A stretch of 64,000 nt of DNA from a virus: positions 58,344-122,343 of IMG/VR virus record IMGVR_UViG_3300024346_000015. The stretch is one strand, 5' to 3'. A model generated the notes under the pieces. That model ran no database searches, was not told the origin of the DNA, and saw only the letters and a list, made by a program, of their open reading frames with translations. This document shows, piece after piece, positions 21,000-59,307 of this stretch (the stretch's first letter is position 1; every line of letters begins with the position of its first letter). Position numbers and translations under genes: made by a program.

Positions 21000-22472
21000 T
21001 TAAAATACCTTTACTTTATATTTCTGTTCCCATAACCTAGCGTCATGTTCGTTGTTGACCATAGGTCTTCCCCGTATGTTCAATGATGTATTTAGTAACA
21101 TAGGAACTCCGGTTCTTTCATAGTACTCTTCGATAACCTTTCTGAACACTGACTGACAATCTTTCTTTACGACTTGTACTCGTGCAGTACCGTCTACGTG
21201 TGTGACAGACTTGTAGTCATGTTTTGCGGTAGACGTGTATTGCATGTACTCGTTCATAGGGCCATCAAAGTACTCCTCTGCATACTCCTCTAGGATAGCA
21301 GGGGCGAATGGACGGTACTTCTGTCTGCGTTTGATAGTGTTGACTGTGTCCTTTACGTCATATCTCACGTCTGCAATCAGAGACCGATTACCTAACGCAC
21401 GTGGGCCAAACTCTGCCCTACCGTTCGCCAGACCGCATACTTTCTTGTCTAAGAGGTGATCGACTACTTCCGTAGGGTTTATGTCTCTTTCTATATTGTA
21501 ACCAAGATATGGTGTCCATACCAACTGATCTTTTCCGGTTGCTTGACTCCACGCATGGGCCGCACATCCTAACGATGATCCCGCATCTGTAGGAGATACC
21601 GCAATGTGAACATCATCGAATAGTTCTGGTAGTCTTGAATTGATAACAACATTCTGAGCGCAACCACCAGAGTAAACAAGTTTGTTACCGTACTGACGTG
21701 CCTTCGTCATGATTTCCATAATCGCCCACTCTGCAAACTTCTGTACAGTCATTGCAAAGTCACGGTGTTCCATACCACCGTTTAGTCTCTTCTCCATGAT
21801 CTTCCACATTCGAGCTCTCTCGATCTCAGACAGTGAGGTTCGTTCTGCATTAATAACGTTACCCATGGCGATGTCGGCATTGACATCAGGTTGTTCTTGA
21901 TACCAGTCCTTCAGGTCATAGAATAACTGTTCGTTCGGAACGCCATAAGAACTTAGTCCCATAACAACATACTCGTCCTCAAGTGGACGCAAACCCAACA
22001 GTTTTGTGGCGGCCGTGTAGACTAATCCTACGGACTTAGGATATGTTTGTTCATACACTAGATTGAAGTTACTGTCTAGGATGACAGTTGTTTGATGTTC
22101 CCCCACGCCATCGATCGATACCATAACTGTAGAGTCACGGTCTTTCCAAGGTCGTGTATAAAATGCACCAGCACAATGAGAAACGTGGTGAGACGTGAAT
22201 GTGTCTGGCTCAGGGAAGTAGTGTTCTGATTTGACTTTTAATAGTGCGTCAGTGAAGGGTCGCCTTATTTCATTCTTTAAGTCGGTGTCTTCATAAAAGG
22301 ATATGTGGTCGGACTTTTTGTGATAATCCCACAAGGACTGTGGGATCCACGCTGTATTTTTATTTTGATCAAAACGTTCGGCATGGGACGCAAATTCAAT
22401 CGTCCCATCCTCGTTTATTATTGATAATCCGGCATCATGATAGTTTTGCGAGTATCCGGTATAACGGGTCAT
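21000..22472 (-). CDS. Carbamoyltransferase, NodU/CmcH-type
   Basis: The 490-residue protein opens GYSQNYHDAGLSIINEDG and includes FTSHHVSHCAGAFYTRPW (histidine-rich motif of the N-terminal domain), MVSIDGVGEH, VYSGGCAQNVVINSRL and FGPRALGNRSLIADVR, all conserved in O-carbamoyltransferases that use carbamoyl phosphate and ATP. It is somewhat shorter than typical bacterial members. It would put a carbamoyl group on a sugar or other hydroxyl, consistent with the neighbouring methyl- and glycosyltransferases. Overlaps the HAD gene by one base. Confidence 0.9.
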   Translation of the reverse strand: MTRYTGYSQNYHDAGLSIINEDGTIEFASHAERFDQNKNTAWIPQSLWDYHKKSDHISFYEDTDLKNEIRRPFTDALLKVKSEHYFPEPDTFTSHHVSHCAGAFYTRPWKDRDSTVMVSIDGVGEHQTTVILDSNFNLVYEQTYPKSVGLVYTAATKLLGLRPLEDEYVVMGLSSYGVPNEQLFYDLKDWYQEQPDVNADIAMGNVINAERTSLSEIERARMWKIMEKRLNGGMEHRDFAMTVQKFAEWAIMEIMTKARQYGNKLVYSGGCAQNVVINSRLPELFDDVHIAVSPTDAGSSLGCAAHAWSQATGKDQLVWTPYLGYNIERDINPTEVVDHLLDKKVCGLANGRAEFGPRALGNRSLIADVRYDVKDTVNTIKRRQKYRPFAPAILEEYAEEYFDGPMNEYMQYTSTAKHDYKSVTHVDGTARVQVVKKDCQSVFRKVIEEYYERTGVPMLLNTSLNIRGRPMVNNEHDARLWEQKYKVKVF

Positions 22473-25095: not shown

Positions 25096-25563
25096 TTAGT
25101 CCTTTTGAATGCCTATTTTATACACTGTCTTGCCGTCTTCTTTAACAGCAGTCAGTACCGATTTACGGTTGGCATCAGGATCTAAGTAAGACACGTGAAC
25201 CCAACCGCTGTCGGGAATACCTACAGTATAGAACTCTAAAATCAACTGATCAAAACTGAGGTTATCCCGAATCCATTCCGCAACTTCTGCATTAGGTACG
25301 CCCGGACATTCGATATCGACTGCCTCGCCCTTACAGTGTTGACTCTTGGATGAACCACCTACCGCCTTGTTTAACTCTTCTCCCCGATAACCAGAATTGA
25401 TTACCGTTGGCCCGAAGTGATCTCGAACTGGTTGAACAACATACTCGAACAACATCTCTGCGTTCTCTAAGTGAATGTCAGACGGGGTATTATCTAACCC
25501 CAGTCTAGTTGCGGTCTGTGATTTGGTGAACTCTTGTAGAGTAAAATTCTTTGATAGTCTCAT
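25096..25563 (-). CDS. Peptidase M15-type murein peptidase, candidate endolysin
   Basis: The 155-residue protein matches Peptidase_M15_3: SGYRGEELNKAVGG, then zinc ligands H76 and D83 in SQHCKGEAVDIE and H123 in GWVHVSY. These DD-carboxypeptidase/endopeptidase enzymes cut the peptide stems of murein. No signal peptide is present, so export would need a holin; a 3TM holin-like protein is encoded at 36262. It begins at the end of phoH. Confidence 0.8.
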   Translation of the reverse strand: MRLSKNFTLQEFTKSQTATRLGLDNTPSDIHLENAEMLFEYVVQPVRDHFGPTVINSGYRGEELNKAVGGSSKSQHCKGEAVDIECPGVPNAEVAEWIRDNLSFDQLILEFYTVGIPDSGWVHVSYLDPDANRKSVLTAVKEDGKTVYKIGIQKD

Positions 25564-33858: not shown

Positions 33859-35844
33859 TTATCCTTCGCAGGCCCGACATTCATCGGACTCTTCTAGTTC
33901 TACTGGTTTGTTTAGGTGTTCCATCAACTCGTCATATCCACCGACATATTTGCCTTCGATATAGATTTGTGGTACTGTTTTTACTTTACGTCCGGTAACT
34001 TCAGAGGCAGTCTTACCGATATCCGCAAGATCAATATAGTCATACGTGATACCTCGTAATTTTAACTCGTCCTTTGCCAACTGACAATACGGACATCCTT
34101 TCTTACCATAGACAATTGTACGTACATCTTCTGATAGAGCGACACGTTCTACCTTATCCGAAACATTCTCTGCACGTTGTTTTGCTTCTGTACGTAGGTA
34201 GTATAGACCTTTCAGTCCCTTCGCCCACGCACTATAATGAACTAAACTCACATAAGACTTCTCTGCACCGGCAGGGAAGAATAGGTTAACCGATTGTCCT
34301 TGACAGATAAACGGTTGACGTTCTGCAGCATGGGTCACTACCCACATCTGATCTAACTCTTGAGCTGTCTTGAACACTGACTTCTCACCTTCGGTCAAGA
34401 ACGGTAGATGTTGTACCGAACCTTTGTTGGTGATAATCGATGTCCAGTTAGACTCGTTGTTCTCACCCTTCTCATCTAACAATAAGGTCAGGTACTTGTT
34501 CTTCACTAGGAATGAACCAGCACGTGTACGGTGAGTATATGCATTTGCCTTCAGTGGTTCAATAGAAGGACTTGTACTCAAAATAACACCAGATGATGCA
34601 TTAGGTGCAATTGCCATCAAGTGAGAGTTTCTCTTACCAGATCCCTCACCATCAAGATACTCTCCACGTTCAACCGCAAGACGATCTGTCTCTTCGTGCG
34701 CTCGATCGTTGATAGTCTCGAACACCACTTTATTCATTTCACGGGCTGTCTCTGACTCCCACGCAACACCATGTTTTTGGAGTAAGGAATGGAATCCCAT
34801 TGCCCCAAGTCCGATACTTCGTTCTCTCGCAGCAGAGTATTTTGCTCGTGAGATCGTATCAGGAGCATTATTAATAAAATACTCAAGGACGTTATCAAGC
34901 ATACGAACAATATCTTGAACAATCGTAGTGTCTTTCCATTCATCGTAATACTCCAGATTCAGAGAAGACAGACAACATACGGCAGTACGTTCTGCATCTG
35001 TGGGAAGATGTATCTCATTACATAGGTTAGATCCATGAATCTTCAATCCTTTATCTTTCAGTGGTTGTGGCATATCCGCATTGGCGGTATCAATAAAGTT
35101 CAGGTAAGGTTCACCTGTACGGAATCGTGTCTCTAGGATACGTTCCCATAGTTTACGGGCATCGACTGTGTCTTTGACCGCATCGTCCTTCGGATCACGC
35201 AGATCAAAAGAACTTCCCTGTTTAACTGCCTCCATGAACTCGTTACTAATGTTAAGTGCATTGTGAAGGTTCAATGCCTTTCGTTGCACATCACCTGTCG
35301 GGATACGCATGTTTAGAAATTCGATAATGTCTGGATGACTCACATCCATATACGCAGCATAAGAACCCTTTCGAGTCTTACCTTGTCTATACGCAATCAT
35401 GTCCGCATCTACGGTATGTAGGAACGGCATCGGGCCAGGCGCAATGTCACTTACTGTACGTACATCACTCCAGTGTCCACCTACACCACCACCATAAACA
35501 GACAACCACCTCAACTCAGATGAATGGTCGATTAGTCCCTCAAGTGTGTCCGGAACATATGTCAGGAAACAACTGATAGGCATCCCCTTACCTTTACCAT
35601 CACCATTAGGTGCATTAGATAGTACCGGAGACGCAAACATAAACCACTTCTTACTTACGTAGTCATAGAGACGTTGTGCAAGTTCAGGATCTAGTTCATC
35701 CTTGTATGTACTCCAAGCTGTCGCTGCACGTGCATATGCTTGTTGGGGAGAATCTTCTTTTGCGGTCAAATAAAAATCTTTCAACATACCTACTGCGTAA
35801 TCGGCCAGTAGATCATCCATAGATCTATTAATTTTTATTTTCAT
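33859..35844 (-). CDS. nrdA: Ribonucleotide reductase alpha subunit fused to glutaredoxin
   Basis: The 661-residue protein has the catalytic barrel: ISCFLTYVPD, NLCNEIHLP with the catalytic Cys and Glu, CCLSSLNLEY with the partner Cys, and GLKGLYYLRT for radical transfer. No N-terminal ATP-cone is visible, so dATP inhibition of the usual kind is probably absent. After about residue 560 comes a glutaredoxin domain (YGKKGCPYCQLAKDEL, KTVPQIYIEGKYVGG), and only then the redox tail ECRACEG. The built-in glutaredoxin would recharge the enzyme without a separate partner. It is preceded by a small unknown gene. Confidence 0.95.
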   Translation of the reverse strand: MKIKINRSMDDLLADYAVGMLKDFYLTAKEDSPQQAYARAATAWSTYKDELDPELAQRLYDYVSKKWFMFASPVLSNAPNGDGKGKGMPISCFLTYVPDTLEGLIDHSSELRWLSVYGGGVGGHWSDVRTVSDIAPGPMPFLHTVDADMIAYRQGKTRKGSYAAYMDVSHPDIIEFLNMRIPTGDVQRKALNLHNALNISNEFMEAVKQGSSFDLRDPKDDAVKDTVDARKLWERILETRFRTGEPYLNFIDTANADMPQPLKDKGLKIHGSNLCNEIHLPTDAERTAVCCLSSLNLEYYDEWKDTTIVQDIVRMLDNVLEYFINNAPDTISRAKYSAARERSIGLGAMGFHSLLQKHGVAWESETAREMNKVVFETINDRAHEETDRLAVERGEYLDGEGSGKRNSHLMAIAPNASSGVILSTSPSIEPLKANAYTHRTRAGSFLVKNKYLTLLLDEKGENNESNWTSIITNKGSVQHLPFLTEGEKSVFKTAQELDQMWVVTHAAERQPFICQGQSVNLFFPAGAEKSYVSLVHYSAWAKGLKGLYYLRTEAKQRAENVSDKVERVALSEDVRTIVYGKKGCPYCQLAKDELKLRGITYDYIDLADIGKTASEVTGRKVKTVPQIYIEGKYVGGYDELMEHLNKPVELEESDECRACEG

Positions 35845-51688: not shown

Positions 51689-53509
51689 TTATTTTAAGAA
51701 AGTGTATATTTCTATGAGTTCTTCTTTACCCTTAACTTTGATGTCCCCAATCTTACGGGATACTGTGTCGGTCAATTGGTCTTTGGTGTGACTTGAGTAG
51801 ATGGTCGGGAAGTCTTTGTAGTCCCCTCGTGCAGCCGTTGCTTCCAATCGTGCGGCAAGGTTTACCGCGTCACCGATAACTGAATAGTCAAATCTGGACT
51901 CAGAACCCATATTACCAACAATACAGTCTCCGGTATTAATGCCAGTACCAACATTGATGTCAGGAAGACCTCGCTCTTTGTAAGTTTCCTTAAGCTCATC
52001 TGTTTTCTCCTCTATTTCTTTGGCAGACTTTACTGCCATGTCTGCGTGGTTCTCACAGGGTACAGGTGCGTTCCAGAACGCCATGATACAGTCACCCATG
52101 TACTTATCGATAGTACCACCGTTGTTTAAGATAATCTGTGTCATCGCATCTAGGAACTCATTGACCAACTCAACCAATCCTTCGGGATCATCGTTGTTCT
52201 TGTAGTGTTCTGAGATCGGAGTGAAGCCACATATATCCATAAATAAGAACGACATCTCCTTACGTTCGCCCCCTAGTTTCAAAAGTGATGGATCCTTCTG
52301 AAGCATATATACCATGTCCGGAGATAAATATGTCCCGAACTGTTTTTTTACTTGCTCTTTCAATTTGTATGTGGTATAATACTGATTAAAAGACGATTGC
52401 CCAAATACAAGGAACCCCGCAATTGAGACCCAAACGATATCCAGCACAAAGTAAGAATTACTCCAGACGATCCACGATATTATCGGGACGCTTGAAAGAA
52501 ACAAAACAGAACTTATCACCCCAACAACTGTGGGAAATCTATAGACCGATACAAGGATTCCTAGACACACTACCAAAATCGAAAGCACTTCAACTATTAG
52601 ACTCCAGTCGGGCCTCTGTATTTGAACACCTGAGAGTACGGTCTGAATTTGATGGCCTTGAACTTCGTGGGGATACACTGCACCCATTGGGGTTGGTACT
52701 GGATTAGCAACTCCCTCTGCGGTCACACCTAAAATTATTATCTTACCTTCGGGGATGGGTTCGAGTATACTCTGAGACTTAAAGTCGTGCCAGAAGGCAA
52801 CAGGCAACTCTGAGGACGGCTCTGTGACCAAAGGATCCTGTTTACCCAGTCTTATCCACTCTACACCAAGAGAATTGTATTTCACGGTGTAGGATGGTTC
52901 CCCTATCCACACCCTAACGGCGTCTAACCCAAGAGAGGGGTACGGTTGTCCGTTGATGCCTACCATTAATGGTGTCCGTCTGAGAACACCTGTAGGTTGA
53001 TCAACTTCAGCGGATACTGCACCCACCCCCATACTCATCTGTGCGAGTTCCGGAATAGGTATCAGTATACCACTGTAGTCGATTAGTGAATCTATAGGTT
53101 TACCGAACGTAGATACGTTGGCATATATCCCTAGATCATCCGTAGTAGTTTGGCGTGTAGGTGCGCTGGCCAGGATTACGGGTTTTAGGGCGATTGATTT
53201 TGATAGTTCCAGATCCCCCGCAAACCGATCGGGTTCTGACCATATCATTGTTGATACTATTAGAGAATTGGGTGGTGCTTGGTTGATATACTTGGCGATT
53301 GTCTTTCGCGGCCACGGGTATTGTCCTTCCTTTTCAATTGATGCTTCATCTATGTTTACCAATACAATATCGTCTATCGAGATAACCTCGTGACTTTGTT
53401 GTAGTTGATCGTAGTATGCGTACTGCAACGACTTCACAATGTCGATCTGCGATACTTTTAAAACCGCGAACAGAATGATCACGGGGATGACACTATACCA
53501 CTTTGTCAT
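51689..53509 (-). CDS. CHASE2 sensor - class III adenylate cyclase
   Basis: With ATG at 53509, in ATGA overlap with the curlin-like gene, the product has 606 residues. It has an N-terminal membrane segment, a periplasmic CHASE2 domain (about 35-300) with IDDIVLVNIDEASIEKEGQY, WPRKTIAKYI and ILGVTAEGVANPVPTP, three further membrane helices (about 305-385), and a class III cyclase domain from about 413. Metal ligands D425 (FMDICGF) and D473 (KYMGDC), K469 and D541 for adenine, and N550/R554 (VNLAAR) are all present, so it should make cAMP from ATP. CHASE2 senses an unknown periplasmic cue. It ends the curli-type operon. Confidence 0.9.
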   Translation of the reverse strand: MTKWYSVIPVIILFAVLKVSQIDIVKSLQYAYYDQLQQSHEVISIDDIVLVNIDEASIEKEGQYPWPRKTIAKYINQAPPNSLIVSTMIWSEPDRFAGDLELSKSIALKPVILASAPTRQTTTDDLGIYANVSTFGKPIDSLIDYSGILIPIPELAQMSMGVGAVSAEVDQPTGVLRRTPLMVGINGQPYPSLGLDAVRVWIGEPSYTVKYNSLGVEWIRLGKQDPLVTEPSSELPVAFWHDFKSQSILEPIPEGKIIILGVTAEGVANPVPTPMGAVYPHEVQGHQIQTVLSGVQIQRPDWSLIVEVLSILVVCLGILVSVYRFPTVVGVISSVLFLSSVPIISWIVWSNSYFVLDIVWVSIAGFLVFGQSSFNQYYTTYKLKEQVKKQFGTYLSPDMVYMLQKDPSLLKLGGERKEMSFLFMDICGFTPISEHYKNNDDPEGLVELVNEFLDAMTQIILNNGGTIDKYMGDCIMAFWNAPVPCENHADMAVKSAKEIEEKTDELKETYKERGLPDINVGTGINTGDCIVGNMGSESRFDYSVIGDAVNLAARLEATAARGDYKDFPTIYSSHTKDQLTDTVSRKIGDIKVKGKEELIEIYTFLK

Positions 53510-54243
53510 TGTTGTGTTATTGTAACAGAACAACCGCCTACTGTCAAGCAATTTTGCTGTAAAGTATAGGTTGCGGTTGAATTAAATTGTTTGAGAGTCA
53601 AGTCAGTACCATACGTACCGTCAAGAGTTATATTTGCGGTATGGGTTGCGTTGGGCCCTTTCTGACGGATGAACACATCGTTCTCGTCATTGTAGATATT
53701 GAGGTTGATTTCCTTTGCACCATCGTGTTGTTGGATGGTCGTAACCTCGTTGTTGTCTCCAGCTACGTGTAGATCGACTGCATGACCATCGACACTACCT
53801 TGATTGGTCTGTTGAATAGAAACACCGTTGTTGTCTCCGTGAACGGTTAGGTCAACGGTATGTCCACCGCCTTCCCAGTTATCGTACCAATAGTCATGGT
53901 TGGTATAACTCTCTGGATAATCGAATGCACATCCTTGACAGATCTTTACTCCATTACCAGAACCACTCATCTCATCTGTTGTAATCTTGTTTACAGAAGA
54001 AGTGTCTTCGTTGTATTGAATGAATAGAAGTCCACTATAGGTGGTGTTGATAAATGATCCAGTATCTAACATATCCACCACATTGTGTGAACCGACTTGT
54101 TCTATACCTAAACTGAAATTAGTACCGGATTGATCGATAGTTATTTGATTGTCCGCTGATGCGGTATCGGTGAAGAAACATATTAGACCAATGAAGAATA
54201 TGGCCATGATACATGTATCTCTGAATTCGTTGTCGTCTTTCAT
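53506..54243 (-). CDS. Curlin-like secreted subunit 2
   Basis: The 245-residue protein has a long n-region and a hydrophobic signal peptide (MAIFFIGLICFFTDTASA), then curlin-type repeats such as NQITIDQSGTNFSLGIEQVG and HGDNNGVSIQQTNQG, in which Q-x-G-x-N and Q residues recur about every 20-25 residues as in CsgA/CsgB. Cysteine pairs ICQGC and CLTVGGC are unusual for curlins. It probably forms or nucleates an amyloid-like fibre outside the cell after export through CsgG. Follows the FecR gene. Confidence 0.75.
   Translation of the reverse strand: MKDDNEFRDTCIMAIFFIGLICFFTDTASADNQITIDQSGTNFSLGIEQVGSHNVVDMLDTGSFINTTYSGLLFIQYNEDTSSVNKITTDEMSGSGNGVKICQGCAFDYPESYTNHDYWYDNWEGGGHTVDLTVHGDNNGVSIQQTNQGSVDGHAVDLHVAGDNNEVTTIQQHDGAKEINLNIYNDENDVFIRQKGPNATHTANITLDGTYGTDLTLKQFNSTATYTLQQNCLTVGGCSVTITQQ
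53519..53547 (-). promoter_or_regulatory. Possible early-type promoter before the cyclase gene (TTGACA-17-TACAAT)
   Basis: TTGACA at 53542-53547 and TACAAT at 53519-53524 lie within the end of the curlin-like gene. The transcript would begin almost at the ATG at 53509, so its use is doubtful. Confidence 0.35.
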
Positions 54244-54244
54244 A

Positions 54245-55390
54245 TCAATTGCTCTGTCTTATTACCACCAAAATGTCATCACCCCCGTCTGCGGTGATCG
54301 TTCCTACGTAACCTTCTACCTCTGTATCTAGTCTTATACTACCTCCGGTTAAAAAGTTCAATGCAATAACACCGTTTACGTCACGGTAGAAAACAATACC
54401 TTGGTCTTCTTGGAAAACTGCATATTGACTGTCAACGTTCTTACCCCAGACAGCACCCTTCAACCTTATCGCACCACCACCTCTACCCGATTGCATATCT
54501 TCGAGATCACCCATAGTGCGTACTAATGCTTCTACTTCATCTAATAGATCCACCAACAATTCTGAGTCAAGTGCATCATAGTCTAATCTAGTGTAGACCG
54601 GATCTTCAGCGTAATCATCATATGACTTTTCCAGTTCATCGAACTGAAGGAAGTCTGCGTCCAATGAACCCATGTCTATATCAGCGTCATCTAACAACTG
54701 TTCTTGTATCGCCTCTGCCACTTCATCGGGTGGACTGACAATGAACATGTTATCGATTGACGATGGTGTTATATTCTCGATGACCACAACTCTGGTCGGA
54801 GGCGAGTCTAAACTAGACACCATTGTCGTTGCATAGGCTTGAGTGAGAGTAGTCTCACCCGCATCATTAGAAACAACAATCTCACCAGACGGATTACCAT
54901 ATTCGTCCGGTAATAATATAACGAGAGTCCGACCCAACTCATCGATCGTTGTAGTGAAATCCGTTCCACGGACAGCAATCTGTGCAGTCGGGGTAGAGAT
55001 ATCGATATTCTTCTTATCTACCATTCCCAATCGACCAGACGCAAATCGAGCAGTCCCAAGTGCCATCTTCATGACCATCTTAGACTTACTCGGATCTGGA
55101 TCGTAATACACCTTATCAATAAAGACTTTGGTGTGTTCGATCAACGACAACTCAGCATCATCCTTGAACTTAATTAACATCCTTCCCTTTGCAGTTTGGG
55201 CTGTATCATTAAGTTCTATGTCAGTGCCTACCACGGACGATATGACATCCGTCTCTCTTAGCAAAGAACCGATTCCTTTCGATTCAACTATCCCGCCGAT
55301 AGATTCTGCATGTACTACCCCAGAACCCATTGACAGTATAACACTAATTATCGTTGGCGTTATCTTTCTGATTAATCTGTATGACTGCAT
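54245..55390 (-). CDS. Secreted FecR-domain protein
   Basis: The ATG at 55390 gives 381 residues with a signal peptide ending near GSGVVHA. The FecR domain follows: TAKGRMLIKFKDDAELSLIE, TKVFIDKVYYDPDPS, KMALGTARFASGRLG and ISTPTAQIAVRGTDFTTTID with the 'A.RGT.F' hallmark. The second half is acidic and contains a beta-rich stretch. FecR-domain proteins of this soluble type commonly accompany CHASE2 proteins and probably relay a periplasmic signal. It overlaps the upstream curlin-like gene by 47 bases. Confidence 0.8.
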   Translation of the reverse strand: MQSYRLIRKITPTIISVILSMGSGVVHAESIGGIVESKGIGSLLRETDVISSVVGTDIELNDTAQTAKGRMLIKFKDDAELSLIEHTKVFIDKVYYDPDPSKSKMVMKMALGTARFASGRLGMVDKKNIDISTPTAQIAVRGTDFTTTIDELGRTLVILLPDEYGNPSGEIVVSNDAGETTLTQAYATTMVSSLDSPPTRVVVIENITPSSIDNMFIVSPPDEVAEAIQEQLLDDADIDMGSLDADFLQFDELEKSYDDYAEDPVYTRLDYDALDSELLVDLLDEVEALVRTMGDLEDMQSGRGGGAIRLKGAVWGKNVDSQYAVFQEDQGIVFYRDVNGVIALNFLTGGSIRLDTEVEGYVGTITADGGDDILVVIRQSN

Positions 55391-56069
55391 TGTCTGACGT
55401 AATATCCATAGTAATGATACCCTTACACGACTGTATTCCGGTTGGACACGTACCACTTAACTGGTTGATGTCGATATCCGCATTGTCACCGGCAAACTCT
55501 ACTGTCTGTGTCTGATAGAAACCATCGTTCTGTAATGATACTATGTTATTACCGTCACCAGTAATGTCCCAGTCCCAAGTTACGTCATCGGTCTCAACGT
55601 CAATGTCGAACACATTAGAAGATCCAAGAACCTGTAGATCTAAATCTAAACGTTCAGAAGATGCAGCTGCACCTTGATCGAAATCAATTGTGTTAGAGTC
55701 GCCCGTCATTGTGATATCCATTGTGGTAGCGTCCGTAGATCCTATATCACCAATGAAATAATCGAGTACGTTAGCATCACCAGTCCACAGTAAATTGTAT
55801 GTAGAACTGTTAGATGTCAATGTACCGAACAACAGGTTTTCGTTACCAACTTGATCGATGTTAAATGTTAGTGAGGAACCTGTGATCGGTGTCGCACTAG
55901 AATTTGTCGCGAAGTTGTCTAAACCAATTTTGTTACCGTAACCAATCTGATCGATATAAAGGGTAAGCGTGTTACCCGATTGATCGATGTTGATCTCGTT
56001 GTCGTCAGATGCTGCACCATAACTTAAACTAGAAAACAGTGCAACTAGTCCTATTAAGTACTTATTCAT
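55344..56069 (-). CDS. Curlin-like secreted subunit 1
   Basis: The 241-residue protein has a clean signal peptide (MNKYLIGLVALFSSLSYGA) and at least seven repeats of about 22-30 residues, for example NIDQSGNTLTLYIDQIGYGN, FNIDQVGNENLLFG and DITGDGNNIVSLQND. Asn, Gln and Gly recur at curlin-like positions and the rest alternates hydrophobic and polar, as in a beta-solenoid amyloid. A late CPTGIQSC pair is unusual. It follows csgG with an 8-base overlap, so synthesis of pore and substrate is coupled. Confidence 0.8.
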   Translation of the reverse strand: MNKYLIGLVALFSSLSYGAASDDNEINIDQSGNTLTLYIDQIGYGNKIGLDNFATNSSATPITGSSLTFNIDQVGNENLLFGTLTSNSSTYNLLWTGDANVLDYFIGDIGSTDATTMDITMTGDSNTIDFDQGAAASSERLDLDLQVLGSSNVFDIDVETDDVTWDWDITGDGNNIVSLQNDGFYQTQTVEFAGDNADIDINQLSGTCPTGIQSCKGIITMDITSDNAVIQINQKDNANDN

Positions 56070-56982
56070 CGTCTTTACTTTCTCCTATCGGGTGACCTTC
56101 GTTTGTCCCATCATGCTGATGGGGATGACGATGTCCTGTCCCTACTTTCCAAAGACCTCTATCATGTCCTTGGTAGATTAACTCTAGTACGCCCGCTTCT
56201 ATAGCCGTTCGTACCGCATATGTCACTGATTCATTATTTCCCACTCCGTCTTCATACTCCACCAGCTGTGTCCCCTGTTCGTAAAATCTAAACAAGTCTC
56301 CACCCGCACCATAACTAAGAATCGTCTTTGTACTCTGGACGTTCAACAAAACTTCTCCCGTCAGAACAGAAACTGCTCTGATAGAAACCGTCACAATATC
56401 TTTACGATACTGCCTAGAGAATCCGATACCTAATGTTCTGGCACCTCGTCCTCCAGTCTGGATATTGGTATCATAACCAATAATACCTCCTTCAATAATC
56501 ATACCAGCAAAGAGCAAAGGCCCAATACTACCAGACTTCTCGTCAGAGTATTCCTTACGGGTTGATCGAACGATCTGTCTCTCTCGTACCAGATTATCGA
56601 TGCCCTGTCTCTCTACTACACGGAACCACTTACCTTGGGATGCCGTCTTGAGAGCGTCTATTAATAACTCGGTTCCCCCTTGGGATACCGCAGTACTGAA
56701 GTCCGCAATTCCATCGCGTGCCTTCCGTTGACCAGTGAGATCCTTAAATCCATATACAGCTACAACTGGCATGTTTGTTGCCGGTGGTACGTTTAATAAG
56801 TCAACGTATGCCGGCAACTTTACTACTGTAGGTTGATCTACGCAAATATACTTGCGAGACATAACCTTGTCTAATCCTTTGTCCGTTCCACAATCTTTCG
56901 GGTTTTCTGACCATTGTGGTATCTGAGCGCAACCTGTCATAAAAATGACGCTCAACAATAGTAGATGCAATTTACGTACCAT
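56062..56982 (-). CDS. csgG: CsgG curli secretion pore, outer-membrane lipoprotein
   Basis: The ATG at 56982 gives 306 residues with a lipobox ending at C18 (VIFMTGC). The body follows E. coli CsgG closely: MPVVAVYGFKDLTGQRKARD, STAVSQGGTELLIDALKTA, WFRVVERQGIDNLVRERQIV, MIIEGGIIGYDTNIQTGGRG, KDIVTVSIRAVSVLTGEVLLN, TKTILSYGAGGDLFRF and a final IYQGHDRGLW. CsgG forms a nonameric outer-membrane channel for unfolded curlins. A His-rich tail follows. Confidence 0.95.
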   Translation of the reverse strand: MVRKLHLLLLSVIFMTGCAQIPQWSENPKDCGTDKGLDKVMSRKYICVDQPTVVKLPAYVDLLNVPPATNMPVVAVYGFKDLTGQRKARDGIADFSTAVSQGGTELLIDALKTASQGKWFRVVERQGIDNLVRERQIVRSTRKEYSDEKSGSIGPLLFAGMIIEGGIIGYDTNIQTGGRGARTLGIGFSRQYRKDIVTVSIRAVSVLTGEVLLNVQSTKTILSYGAGGDLFRFYEQGTQLVEYEDGVGNNESVTYAVRTAIEAGVLELIYQGHDRGLWKVGTGHRHPHQHDGTNEGHPIGESKDDE

Positions 56983-57472
56983 CACCACCATCACTCCCGT
57001 CTGTACCGAAGTTACCTGTTCCGACAGGTATTTCGATCACGGTCTCAGTTCCATCTGTGTCGATGATAGTCATCTTGATGTAATCTTCACCGGCTTCGTT
57101 GGTGAGTACCTCATATGACACAACTGATCCCTCAAGGGTAAATGACCCAAAGGTTACTGCATTTTCGTTGCTGAACATATTGTCCACCAACTGTTTAGAT
57201 AGTTGTGCATAGATTCTACTCTCTAGGTTACGTATGAACTTGGCTAAGGTTGTATTCTCTGCTTCCCGTTCTGCGGCCTTTTGTGCCGCCTCTAACGCAT
57301 CCTCGATAGATTTCTTTCTACTGTGTTCTTGGTTTTCAATGGTGAGATAGTGTGATCCAGTACCCACTCCACTAAAGGACGGGTTCTTAAAACCAAATGT
57401 TATCTCTGACGTTGCCGCCAATGGCGACATCATTACCAAAACAAGAATACTACTTGTTAGTCTTTTTATCAT
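56972..57472 (-). CDS. csgF: CsgF-like curli assembly factor
   Basis: The ATG at 57472 gives 166 residues with a signal peptide (MIKRLTSSILVLVMMSPLAA). The mature start TSEITFGFKNPSFSGVG matches the CsgF N-terminus (TFQFRNPNFGG), the part that plugs into CsgG, and YAQLSKQLVDNMFSN with the C-terminal beta region fits CsgF as well. It couples secretion to fibre nucleation at the cell surface. A Lys/Glu-rich helix in the middle is an addition. It overlaps csgG by 11 bases. Confidence 0.85.
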   Translation of the reverse strand: MIKRLTSSILVLVMMSPLAATSEITFGFKNPSFSGVGTGSHYLTIENQEHSRKKSIEDALEAAQKAAEREAENTTLAKFIRNLESRIYAQLSKQLVDNMFSNENAVTFGSFTLEGSVVSYEVLTNEAGEDYIKMTIIDTDGTETVIEIPVGTGNFGTDGSDGGDGT

Positions 57473-57731
57473 TTCGTTCAACCATTTCCTGCTGTTGCAG
57501 TATCATATCTAATTTAGTACGCAATCTAATCAAGTCATTGTCGAGCATTCGTACTCGATCGATCAACTGGATCAGAGTCAAATGCGACTCCTCTATCACT
57601 GGATCTACATGGTCAGTAACCCAGTGCCACACATAATAGATGAAGTACCCTAATCCTATACAAGCGATAATGGGGAATCCATATGTGTTTATCATGTCTA
57701 CGATATTTAGTGATTCGATAGGTTCCATCAA
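57450..57731 (-). CDS. Membrane/coiled-coil protein, curli operon gene 2
   Basis: The 93-residue protein has an N-terminal membrane segment (GFPIIACIGLGYFIYYVWHW) and a coiled coil with IDRVRMLDNDLIRLRTKLDM. It is a distant relative of the gene before it and of small proteins in marine T4-like phages. Overlaps both neighbours (4 and about 23 bases). A holin-like or secretion-accessory role is possible. Confidence 0.65.
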   Translation of the reverse strand: MMEPIESLNIVDMINTYGFPIIACIGLGYFIYYVWHWVTDHVDPVIEESHLTLIQLIDRVRMLDNDLIRLRTKLDMILQQQEMVERNDKKTNK

Positions 57732-58006
57732 TCCTTCCTCGAATCTTTCTGTCCATCGGCCCTAGACAATCGGTCTAGGTCTGGCCGTAAGTCAAAAGAA
57801 TGTGATATCAACAAGTCGATACGAACCAACTCATTGTTCATAGTTTTTATTCGGTTTTCCAAACTCAATACAAATCCGCGTTGCGTCTTGATATTACTCA
57901 AGGCACCGTCCAGTATAAATTTTAAAGTTAGGAATACGAAAAATCCTCCGGCGAGTGCGGAGGCGATAGGGAATCCAACGTCCATGACGCTTAGAAATAA
58001 ATCCAT
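57728..58006 (-). CDS. Membrane/coiled-coil protein, curli operon gene 1
   Basis: The 92-residue protein has a membrane segment at about 10-35 (VGFPIASALAGGFFVFLTLK) and a coiled coil with LENRIKTMNNELVRIDLLIS, then an Asp/Arg-rich tail. It shares the 'GFP...', coiled-coil layout with the next gene. First gene after the late-promoter motif at 58039-58046. Confidence 0.65.
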   Translation of the reverse strand: MDLFLSVMDVGFPIASALAGGFFVFLTLKFILDGALSNIKTQRGFVLSLENRIKTMNNELVRIDLLISHSFDLRPDLDRLSRADGQKDSRKD

Positions 58007-58038
58007 CGTAATACCTTCAAATCAAAAGACTGTGAAAG

Positions 58039-58046
58039 TATTTATA
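58039..58046 (-). promoter_or_regulatory. Late promoter motif TATAAATA of the curli-type operon
   Basis: A perfect late element 32 bases before the first gene of an uninterrupted eight-gene overlapping run that ends with the adenylate cyclase. Confidence 0.75.
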
Positions 58047-58518: not shown

Positions 58519-59307
58519 CTATTCCTCTTGGAATTTTTGTTCTATGTATTTAGCGAAGGCGGTATGCGCCTCTGCACTTGGGTGATGGCCAGACATAAAA
58601 CCAACACACTTATTATCTTTGTCTACGACTTCGGTACATACTTGAGAGAAGGACTTTCCACTAGCAAACCCCAGTCGAGATTTCTTTGGTAATGAATACA
58701 TCATCTTCTTTATCATATGTTGCCAGTCTTGCAGGGATTGGACTTCAGGTCTATTACAATCAAGGATCGCGTTCAATAACTGTCTCCACTGATTCCTATG
58801 GAACTGAGTCATAACTAGTTTGATTCCTCGCGCCTCACATATCTGATGTATCGCAATCATGTAACTCATCTGGTGAGTAATGGCTGTACGAAACATTAGA
58901 TTCATTTCATCATAATATAGGTGCAAGGCATCCTTGGTTCGGTTTTTAGCGAAACCTATGCTGTTAATACGGGTTGGTGACAACTGAGTGATACTGTTGT
59001 ATCTAGGAACATGATAGAGATGTTCATCTTCCGGTGACACGTCATTGACAATCTCTTCTCTCTCCCATGCAGACCACACTATAACCATGTGAGTACAATC
59101 ATCTGCATGTTCGGACGATAAGAAGTTTAATGTGTCACGGAAGATCTTATGGTTACTGCCTCCGCAACTGGCGTAGTTCATTAGATCTATGTCTAGTGAC
59201 TTTGCCAGTTTGTCGGAGAACCTGTGGTGTTGATGGGTGGGCGGATTAGTATTAAAACCCGGCAGTTCATCCCCCCAAACAAAACTACAACCATTTGTAA
59301 ATAGCAT
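58519..59307 (-). CDS. SGNH-hydrolase-like protein
   Basis: The 262-residue protein opens LFTNGCSFVWGDELPGFN, with Ser in the place of the SGNH nucleophile, then MNYASCGGSNHKIFRDTLNF (Gly and Asn blocks), MVIVWSAWEREEI, and near the end FMSGHHPSAEAHTAFAKYI, the D/H-x-x-H-like block, here HHPS. SGNH enzymes are esterases or acetylhydrolases, often on sugars. Family call is moderate. Confidence 0.65.
   Translation of the reverse strand: MLFTNGCSFVWGDELPGFNTNPPTHQHHRFSDKLAKSLDIDLMNYASCGGSNHKIFRDTLNFLSSEHADDCTHMVIVWSAWEREEIVNDVSPEDEHLYHVPRYNSITQLSPTRINSIGFAKNRTKDALHLYYDEMNLMFRTAITHQMSYMIAIHQICEARGIKLVMTQFHRNQWRQLLNAILDCNRPEVQSLQDWQHMIKKMMYSLPKKSRLGFASGKSFSQVCTEVVDKDNKCVGFMSGHHPSAEAHTAFAKYIEQKFQEE

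Follow-up and report, generated by a model that had tools for sequence, protein, structure and literature searches.

A conserved curli-type operon with FecR-domain and CHASE2-cyclase genes in a T4-like marine phage

Does a T4-like marine virus of bacteria encode a curli-type secretion system with its own signalling proteins, and what would such a system do during infection? The question arises from a 64,000-nt stretch of DNA (the window) taken from a virus record of 122,343 bases. The major capsid protein of this phage is 68.7% identical to that of phage C48C1, and ~60% identical to those of Melnitz and HTVC008M. C48C1 does not figure among the phage records that match CsgG. The GC content of the window phage is ~43%, compared to 34% at the HTVC008M locus. 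A first-pass annotation of the window had described eight leftward genes for curli-type secretion and signalling. All eight open reading frames were recovered on the minus strand at 51689–58006, in the position and order that it gave (51689–58046 with the promoter box). Read leftward, the features are:

58039–58046, minus strand: T4-type late promoter box TATAAATA, lying 32 bp upstream of the first gene's ATG
57728–58006, minus strand: TM1, 92 aa, paralogue of TM2 (phrog_18771, 2.3e-25)
57450–57728, minus strand: TM2, 92-aa membrane/coiled-coil protein of the TM1 family (phrog_18771, 6.9e-30)
56972–57472, minus strand: CsgF homologue (PF10614, 1.8e-16; phrog_35372)
56062–56994, minus strand: CsgG homologue (PF03783, 5.7e-51), with a lipoprotein-type start (TGC)
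55344–56069, minus strand: curlin-like subunit 1 (NCBIfam CsgA model, 0.00012)
54245–55390, minus strand: FecR-domain protein (PF04773, 1e-07; phrog_37870, 1e-60)
53506–54243, minus strand: curlin-like subunit 2 (Curlin_rpt in homologues; strand count)
51689–53509, minus strand: CHASE2-class III adenylate cyclase (CHASE2, 1.5e-30; Guanylate_cyc, 1.2e-17)

The family assignments of the annotation are also supported, with CsgG, CsgF, CHASE2, Guanylate_cyc and FecR all above the curated Pfam cut-offs. Small corrections of the start codons are probable (CsgF, ATG at 57472; FecR, ATG at 55390; cyclase, ATG at 53509), and with these, neighbouring genes abut or share no more than a few to a few dozen bases. 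Unnamed PHROGs families exist for CsgG, CsgF, FecR, the cyclase and both small proteins. Elsewhere, the window encodes a DUF6071 protein just upstream of the operon (58519–59307; PF19547, 1e-08), a Nol-like carbamoyltransferase (21000–22472) and the large subunit of ribonucleotide reductase (33859–35844).

Secretion genes, late promoter and conservation

The CsgG homologue scores 173 bits against PF03783 (cut-off 20.8) and starts with a lipobox-like sequence (TGC), identifying it as a pore lipoprotein of the CsgG family. The E. coli CsgG structures are matched across 230 residues by a profile built from the phage CsgG family (3.6e-65). CsgF reaches 60.9 bits against PF10614 (cut-off 25.8), and has a signal-peptide-like start and an FxNPxFxG N-terminus. 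Against PDB, the resemblance of the CsgF profile is limited to the N-terminus of E. coli CsgF (E = 0.067). CsgF is known for its role in fibre nucleation and anchoring. The CsgE adaptor and the CsgC inhibitor are present in enteric curli systems, but not in all curli systems; CsgE is the usual curli secretion adaptor and the known gate of CsgG. Their absence, noted in the first-pass annotation, is borne out at the level of the 122-kb record, possibly incomplete, which has no match to PF10627 (CsgE) or PF10610 (CsgC), with the E. coli control matched for both.

An extra His-rich tail (HRHPH) is found at the C-terminus of CsgG in 78 of 81 copies (the window and loci L004–L083), and is missing from HTVC008M and Melnitz. 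It is possibly metal-binding.

Both curlin-like proteins appear to be repeat proteins, on evidence that is weak but consistent. The window copies score 18.1 and 14.2 bits with Curlin_rpt (0.0026 and 0.045), under the cut-off of 20.7. Among aligned homologues, the repeat is detected at E≤0.1 in 24 of 27 for subunit 1 (best 8.6e-06) and in 26 of 33 for subunit 2 (best 1.6e-09). Curlin-type strands, counted with the pattern [hydrophobic]x[hydrophobic]xQ, number 6.0 per protein in subunit 1 (1.2 in shuffled sequences) and 7.8 in subunit 2 (1.6 in shuffles). The repeats are irregular, however, and subunit 2 has two invariant cysteines, unlike classical CsgA. No PDB sequence was matched by the curlin profile. 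AlphaFold2 models are repeated and all-beta, with a mean pLDDT of 72.9 (subunit 1) and 78.6 (subunit 2). Many of the nearest solved folds found by Foldseek are beta-helix proteins, none of them significant (best E-values of 0.099 and 0.15). The models are compatible with a beta-solenoid fold but do not prove it.

TM1 and TM2 have a hydrophobic N-terminal segment followed by a charged, heptad-like remainder, from which the coiled coil was judged by eye. TM1 is 92–98 aa long in all relatives, and the TM1/TM2 family as a whole spans 83–115 aa. Wittmers et al. (PMC9599517) labelled the one or two genes preceding csgF as histidine kinases. Judging by gene position, we infer that TM1 and TM2 are the counterparts of these genes. 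The kinase label does not apply to them: the proteins are 83–115 aa long, none of 18 members matches a kinase domain at E≤1, and no histidine is invariant. TM2 matches a holin PHROG weakly (0.011), and weak similarity to YvrJ is seen in 3 of 18 relatives, consistent with a possible holin-like accessory role.

The end coordinate given in the first-pass annotation, 58046, is the exact outer end of the TATAAATA box. The box occurs 15 times in the window (3.05 expected), and lies no more than 150 bp upstream of the first operon gene in 53 of 80 loci (background of 0.025 per 150 bp), although these loci are related, some nearly identical, and do not represent 53 independent events. The operon thus has the arrangement of a T4-type late transcription unit, and its late expression, guessed in the annotation, is supported by the box both here and in the related loci. 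In HTVC008M, the box sits before the neighbouring upstream gene, not before the first gene of the operon. In many loci without an adjacent box, a small gene of ~80–90 aa abuts the operon. An M15_3 peptidase gene abuts it upstream in three loci (L007, L022 and L036); the window phage has a homologue of this gene, likely an endolysin, away from the operon at 25096–25563. This upstream context loosely ties the operon to late and lysis-stage genes. Searches with the lysis families PF05838 and PF11031 gave no match, and no control was matched by them either.

To follow the operon in related phages, a check that the annotation had proposed, we scanned IMG/VR, which yielded 356 CsgG relatives. The best 80 of these 356 loci were read together with HTVC008M, Melnitz and the window, and the full eight-gene order was found in 53 of the 83, in isolates as well as environmental contigs. 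Most loci short of the full order end at contig ends. Between the window and locus L006, dN/dS ranges from 0.01 to 0.17 across all eight genes, and it is below 0.5 wherever computable in five pairs. Purifying selection acts on each of the eight genes, and the shared order together with the low dN/dS indicates that the operon is maintained as a unit. We conclude that the operon is real and conserved, that it is probably expressed late, and that it has been published in kind already.

Relationship to known phage and bacterial systems

The first-pass annotation considered the arrangement little described, which is incorrect. The isolate HTVC008M is published, and curli genes were reported from pelagimyophages in 2020 (PMC7029224). 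Those of Melnitz were interpreted in 2022 as possibly encoding a lysis pore (PMC9004378). In the same year, Wittmers et al. described the complete set, including FecR, adenylate cyclase and curlin genes but no CsgE, from pelagiphages of both the myo- and the podo-type, and also reported an alphaproteobacterial origin and expression in metatranscriptomes (PMC9599517). Given these isolates and the 2022 description, the arrangement itself is not new. Related phages of SAR11 and OM43 have been reported to carry the gene set, which is found here in another phage with a higher GC content. Four points are new: the late promoter is conserved, the kinase label is rejected, a bacterial operon contains the signalling pair as well, and phage FecR ends in a curlin-like strand.

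HTVC008M (KC465899), which carries the pelagiphage T8SS module, has all eight genes, arranged identically, and likewise lacks CsgE, but its proteins are only 27–51% identical to those of the window. Melnitz, a Methylophilales phage, is also T4-like with the same gene order (28–58% identity). Its authors reported csgGF only, without csgA/B (PMC9004378), whereas two curlin-repeat proteins are now annotated in its record. The window operon shares the CsgG pore, CsgF and curlin-type strands with the E. coli csgBAC/csgDEFG system, and differs from it in the missing CsgE and CsgC and in a CsgF that is alike at the N-terminus alone. The Burkholderia BiofilmReg operon, which acts in biofilm control, resembles the signalling pair in that an exported FecR-domain protein is encoded beside a CHASE2 sensor; however, its output is a histidine kinase and response regulator, not a cyclase, and it has no curli genes (PMC5192318).

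A scan of GTDB genomes identified a cellular counterpart. The Hyphomonas sp. TMED17 MAG encodes CsgF, CsgG, curlin, FecR and CHASE2 cyclase in this order (L093:9456–15479), on a 705-kb contig where ordinary chromosomal genes flank the operon. It differs from the window operon by its GC content of 52%, a single curlin of 504 aa, and the lack of TM1/TM2. Its CsgG joins the phage clade (support 100/97) on a long branch. Among ~1,080 genomes sampled at the level of its order, class and phylum, this MAG alone matched the phage-type FecR over its full length (368.6 bits; others ≤123). FecR and CHASE2 genes adjoin in several genomes of the Hyphomonas order, and the short stretches read there contain no curli genes. 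The presence of the same pair in a chromosomal curli operon suggests, as the simplest reading, that the pair probably arrived with a bacterial operon, with transfer from phage to bacterium as the less likely alternative. In view of the Hyphomonas operon, the published statement that FecR and the cyclase fall outside bacterial curli operons needs qualification.

Other candidates for bacterial operons were set aside. Phage-type curli operons are present on contigs L087–L092 and L094 of a GTDB-based collection, labelled Bacteroidota, Synechococcus or Rhodobacteraceae. Since they carry phage-type TM1/TM2, and those placed in the tree fall within or next to the phage clade, they probably represent phage contigs that were binned into MAGs. 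A CsgG match in a 1,499-bp Salmonella "phage" record is probably the csgG of the host.

Signalling pair and possible roles during infection

The FecR domain scores 32.7 bits (cut-off 24) in a protein with a signal-peptide-like start, and neither a FecI sigma factor nor a FecA receptor is encoded beside it within the operon. Its reading as an iron regulator of the FecIRA type is therefore unsupported. The cyclase contains CHASE2, an extracytoplasmic sensor domain (107 bits; cut-off 26.3), and a Guanylate_cyc domain (64.6 bits; cut-off 21.9), and matches solved adenylate cyclases down to 4.3e-31. Residues D439, K483, D487 and R568 are invariant in 12 of 12 aligned proteins, and N564 nearly so; in class III cyclases these are the metal, purine and transition-state residues. 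As the catalytic residues are kept, the class III cyclase is probably active.

We favour, with a probability of about 0.55, the interpretation that the locus is an alphaproteobacterial-type curli (type VIII secretion) operon in reduced form, by which a T4-like marine phage directs the secretion of curlin-like fibres late in infection, with a periplasmic FecR/CHASE2 cAMP sensor. The late promoter would fire first, and CsgG would then be lipidated and form an outer-membrane pore with CsgF. Both curlin-like subunits would enter the periplasm through Sec and leave by the CsgG/CsgF pore, forming fibres or a layer on the surface of the infected cell. Together, FecR and the CHASE2 cyclase could act as a sensor pair between periplasm and cytoplasm, with cAMP made upon a change in the state of the envelope or fibre, and TM1/TM2 may be inner-membrane accessories, perhaps holin-like. 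The benefit might be that cells or progeny are held together, or that superinfection is blocked. This interpretation is favoured by the CsgG and CsgF scores, the match to solved CsgG, the strand excess, the Curlin_rpt hits among homologues, gene order, dN/dS, the late box, the cyclase residues and the bacterial operon. Against it are the sub-cut-off scores of the window curlins, their irregular repeats, the lack of a significant Foldseek match, and CsgE not being found. To our knowledge, no fibre has been demonstrated in any curli-bearing phage, and clumping was not seen in Melnitz cultures (PMC9004378).

The same irregular repeats, weak Pfam scores, invariant cysteines and absence of clumping would fit curlin-like proteins whose export serves to coat the surface or mask a receptor for superinfection exclusion, not to build curli-type fibres. 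We consider this unlikely, as regular Q-bearing strands are far above shuffles in both subunits and CsgF, a nucleation and anchoring protein, is retained. Following Buchholz et al. 2022, CsgG/CsgF and holin-like TM1/TM2 could instead make up a pore, pinholin- or secretin-like, that contributes to the timing of lysis, the curlins being secondary. This proposal, made with pore modelling (PMC9004378), would account for the late promoter, the upstream peptidase gene in L007, L022 and L036, and the weak holin and YvrJ similarities. It leaves unexplained two conserved curlin-like genes under purifying selection, as well as the FecR-cyclase pair, and an outer-membrane pore alone cannot perform the inner-membrane task of a holin. 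Furthermore, the M15_3 peptidase of the window phage is located elsewhere, so its lysis genes are not restricted to the operon. On balance, a lysis-timing pore is rather improbable. An ungated CsgG that admits nutrients or cofactors to the infected cell, with FecR as an iron reporter (PMC7029224 and PMC9599517), would agree with the missing CsgE gate. However, an open pore needs neither CsgF nor the two curlin-like genes, all of which are retained, and the signal-peptide-like start and neighbourhood of FecR do not support an iron role, making uptake very unlikely.

If the favoured interpretation of phage-made surface amyloid is correct, these widespread ocean phages would be a rare example in which a virus brings along an entire secretion system, one that the host may itself lack. 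Because the late promoter is conserved, timing can be put directly to the test in cultured HTVC008M and Melnitz, and the Hyphomonas operon provides a cellular comparison for the FecR-cyclase pair.

A lead on what the pair might sense comes from the FecR C-terminus. In each of the 61 phage FecR proteins read, the last residues form an [IV]xQ strand (e.g. VVIRQSN; 54245–54265 in the window) that resembles the last strands of the curlins and is absent from the Hyphomonas FecR. It may be a docking strand. More speculatively, and in our estimate with quite long odds, the tail would dock on or cap the fibre, and the CHASE2 cyclase would read fibre growth and report it as cAMP, making a virus-encoded, self-monitoring surface amyloid.

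The cyclase gene itself looks recombined. Its dS to L006 is 0.14, compared to 0.37–1.07 for the other operon genes, and the type of catalytic domain and the C-terminal extension differ among close relatives (L006, L008 and L019).
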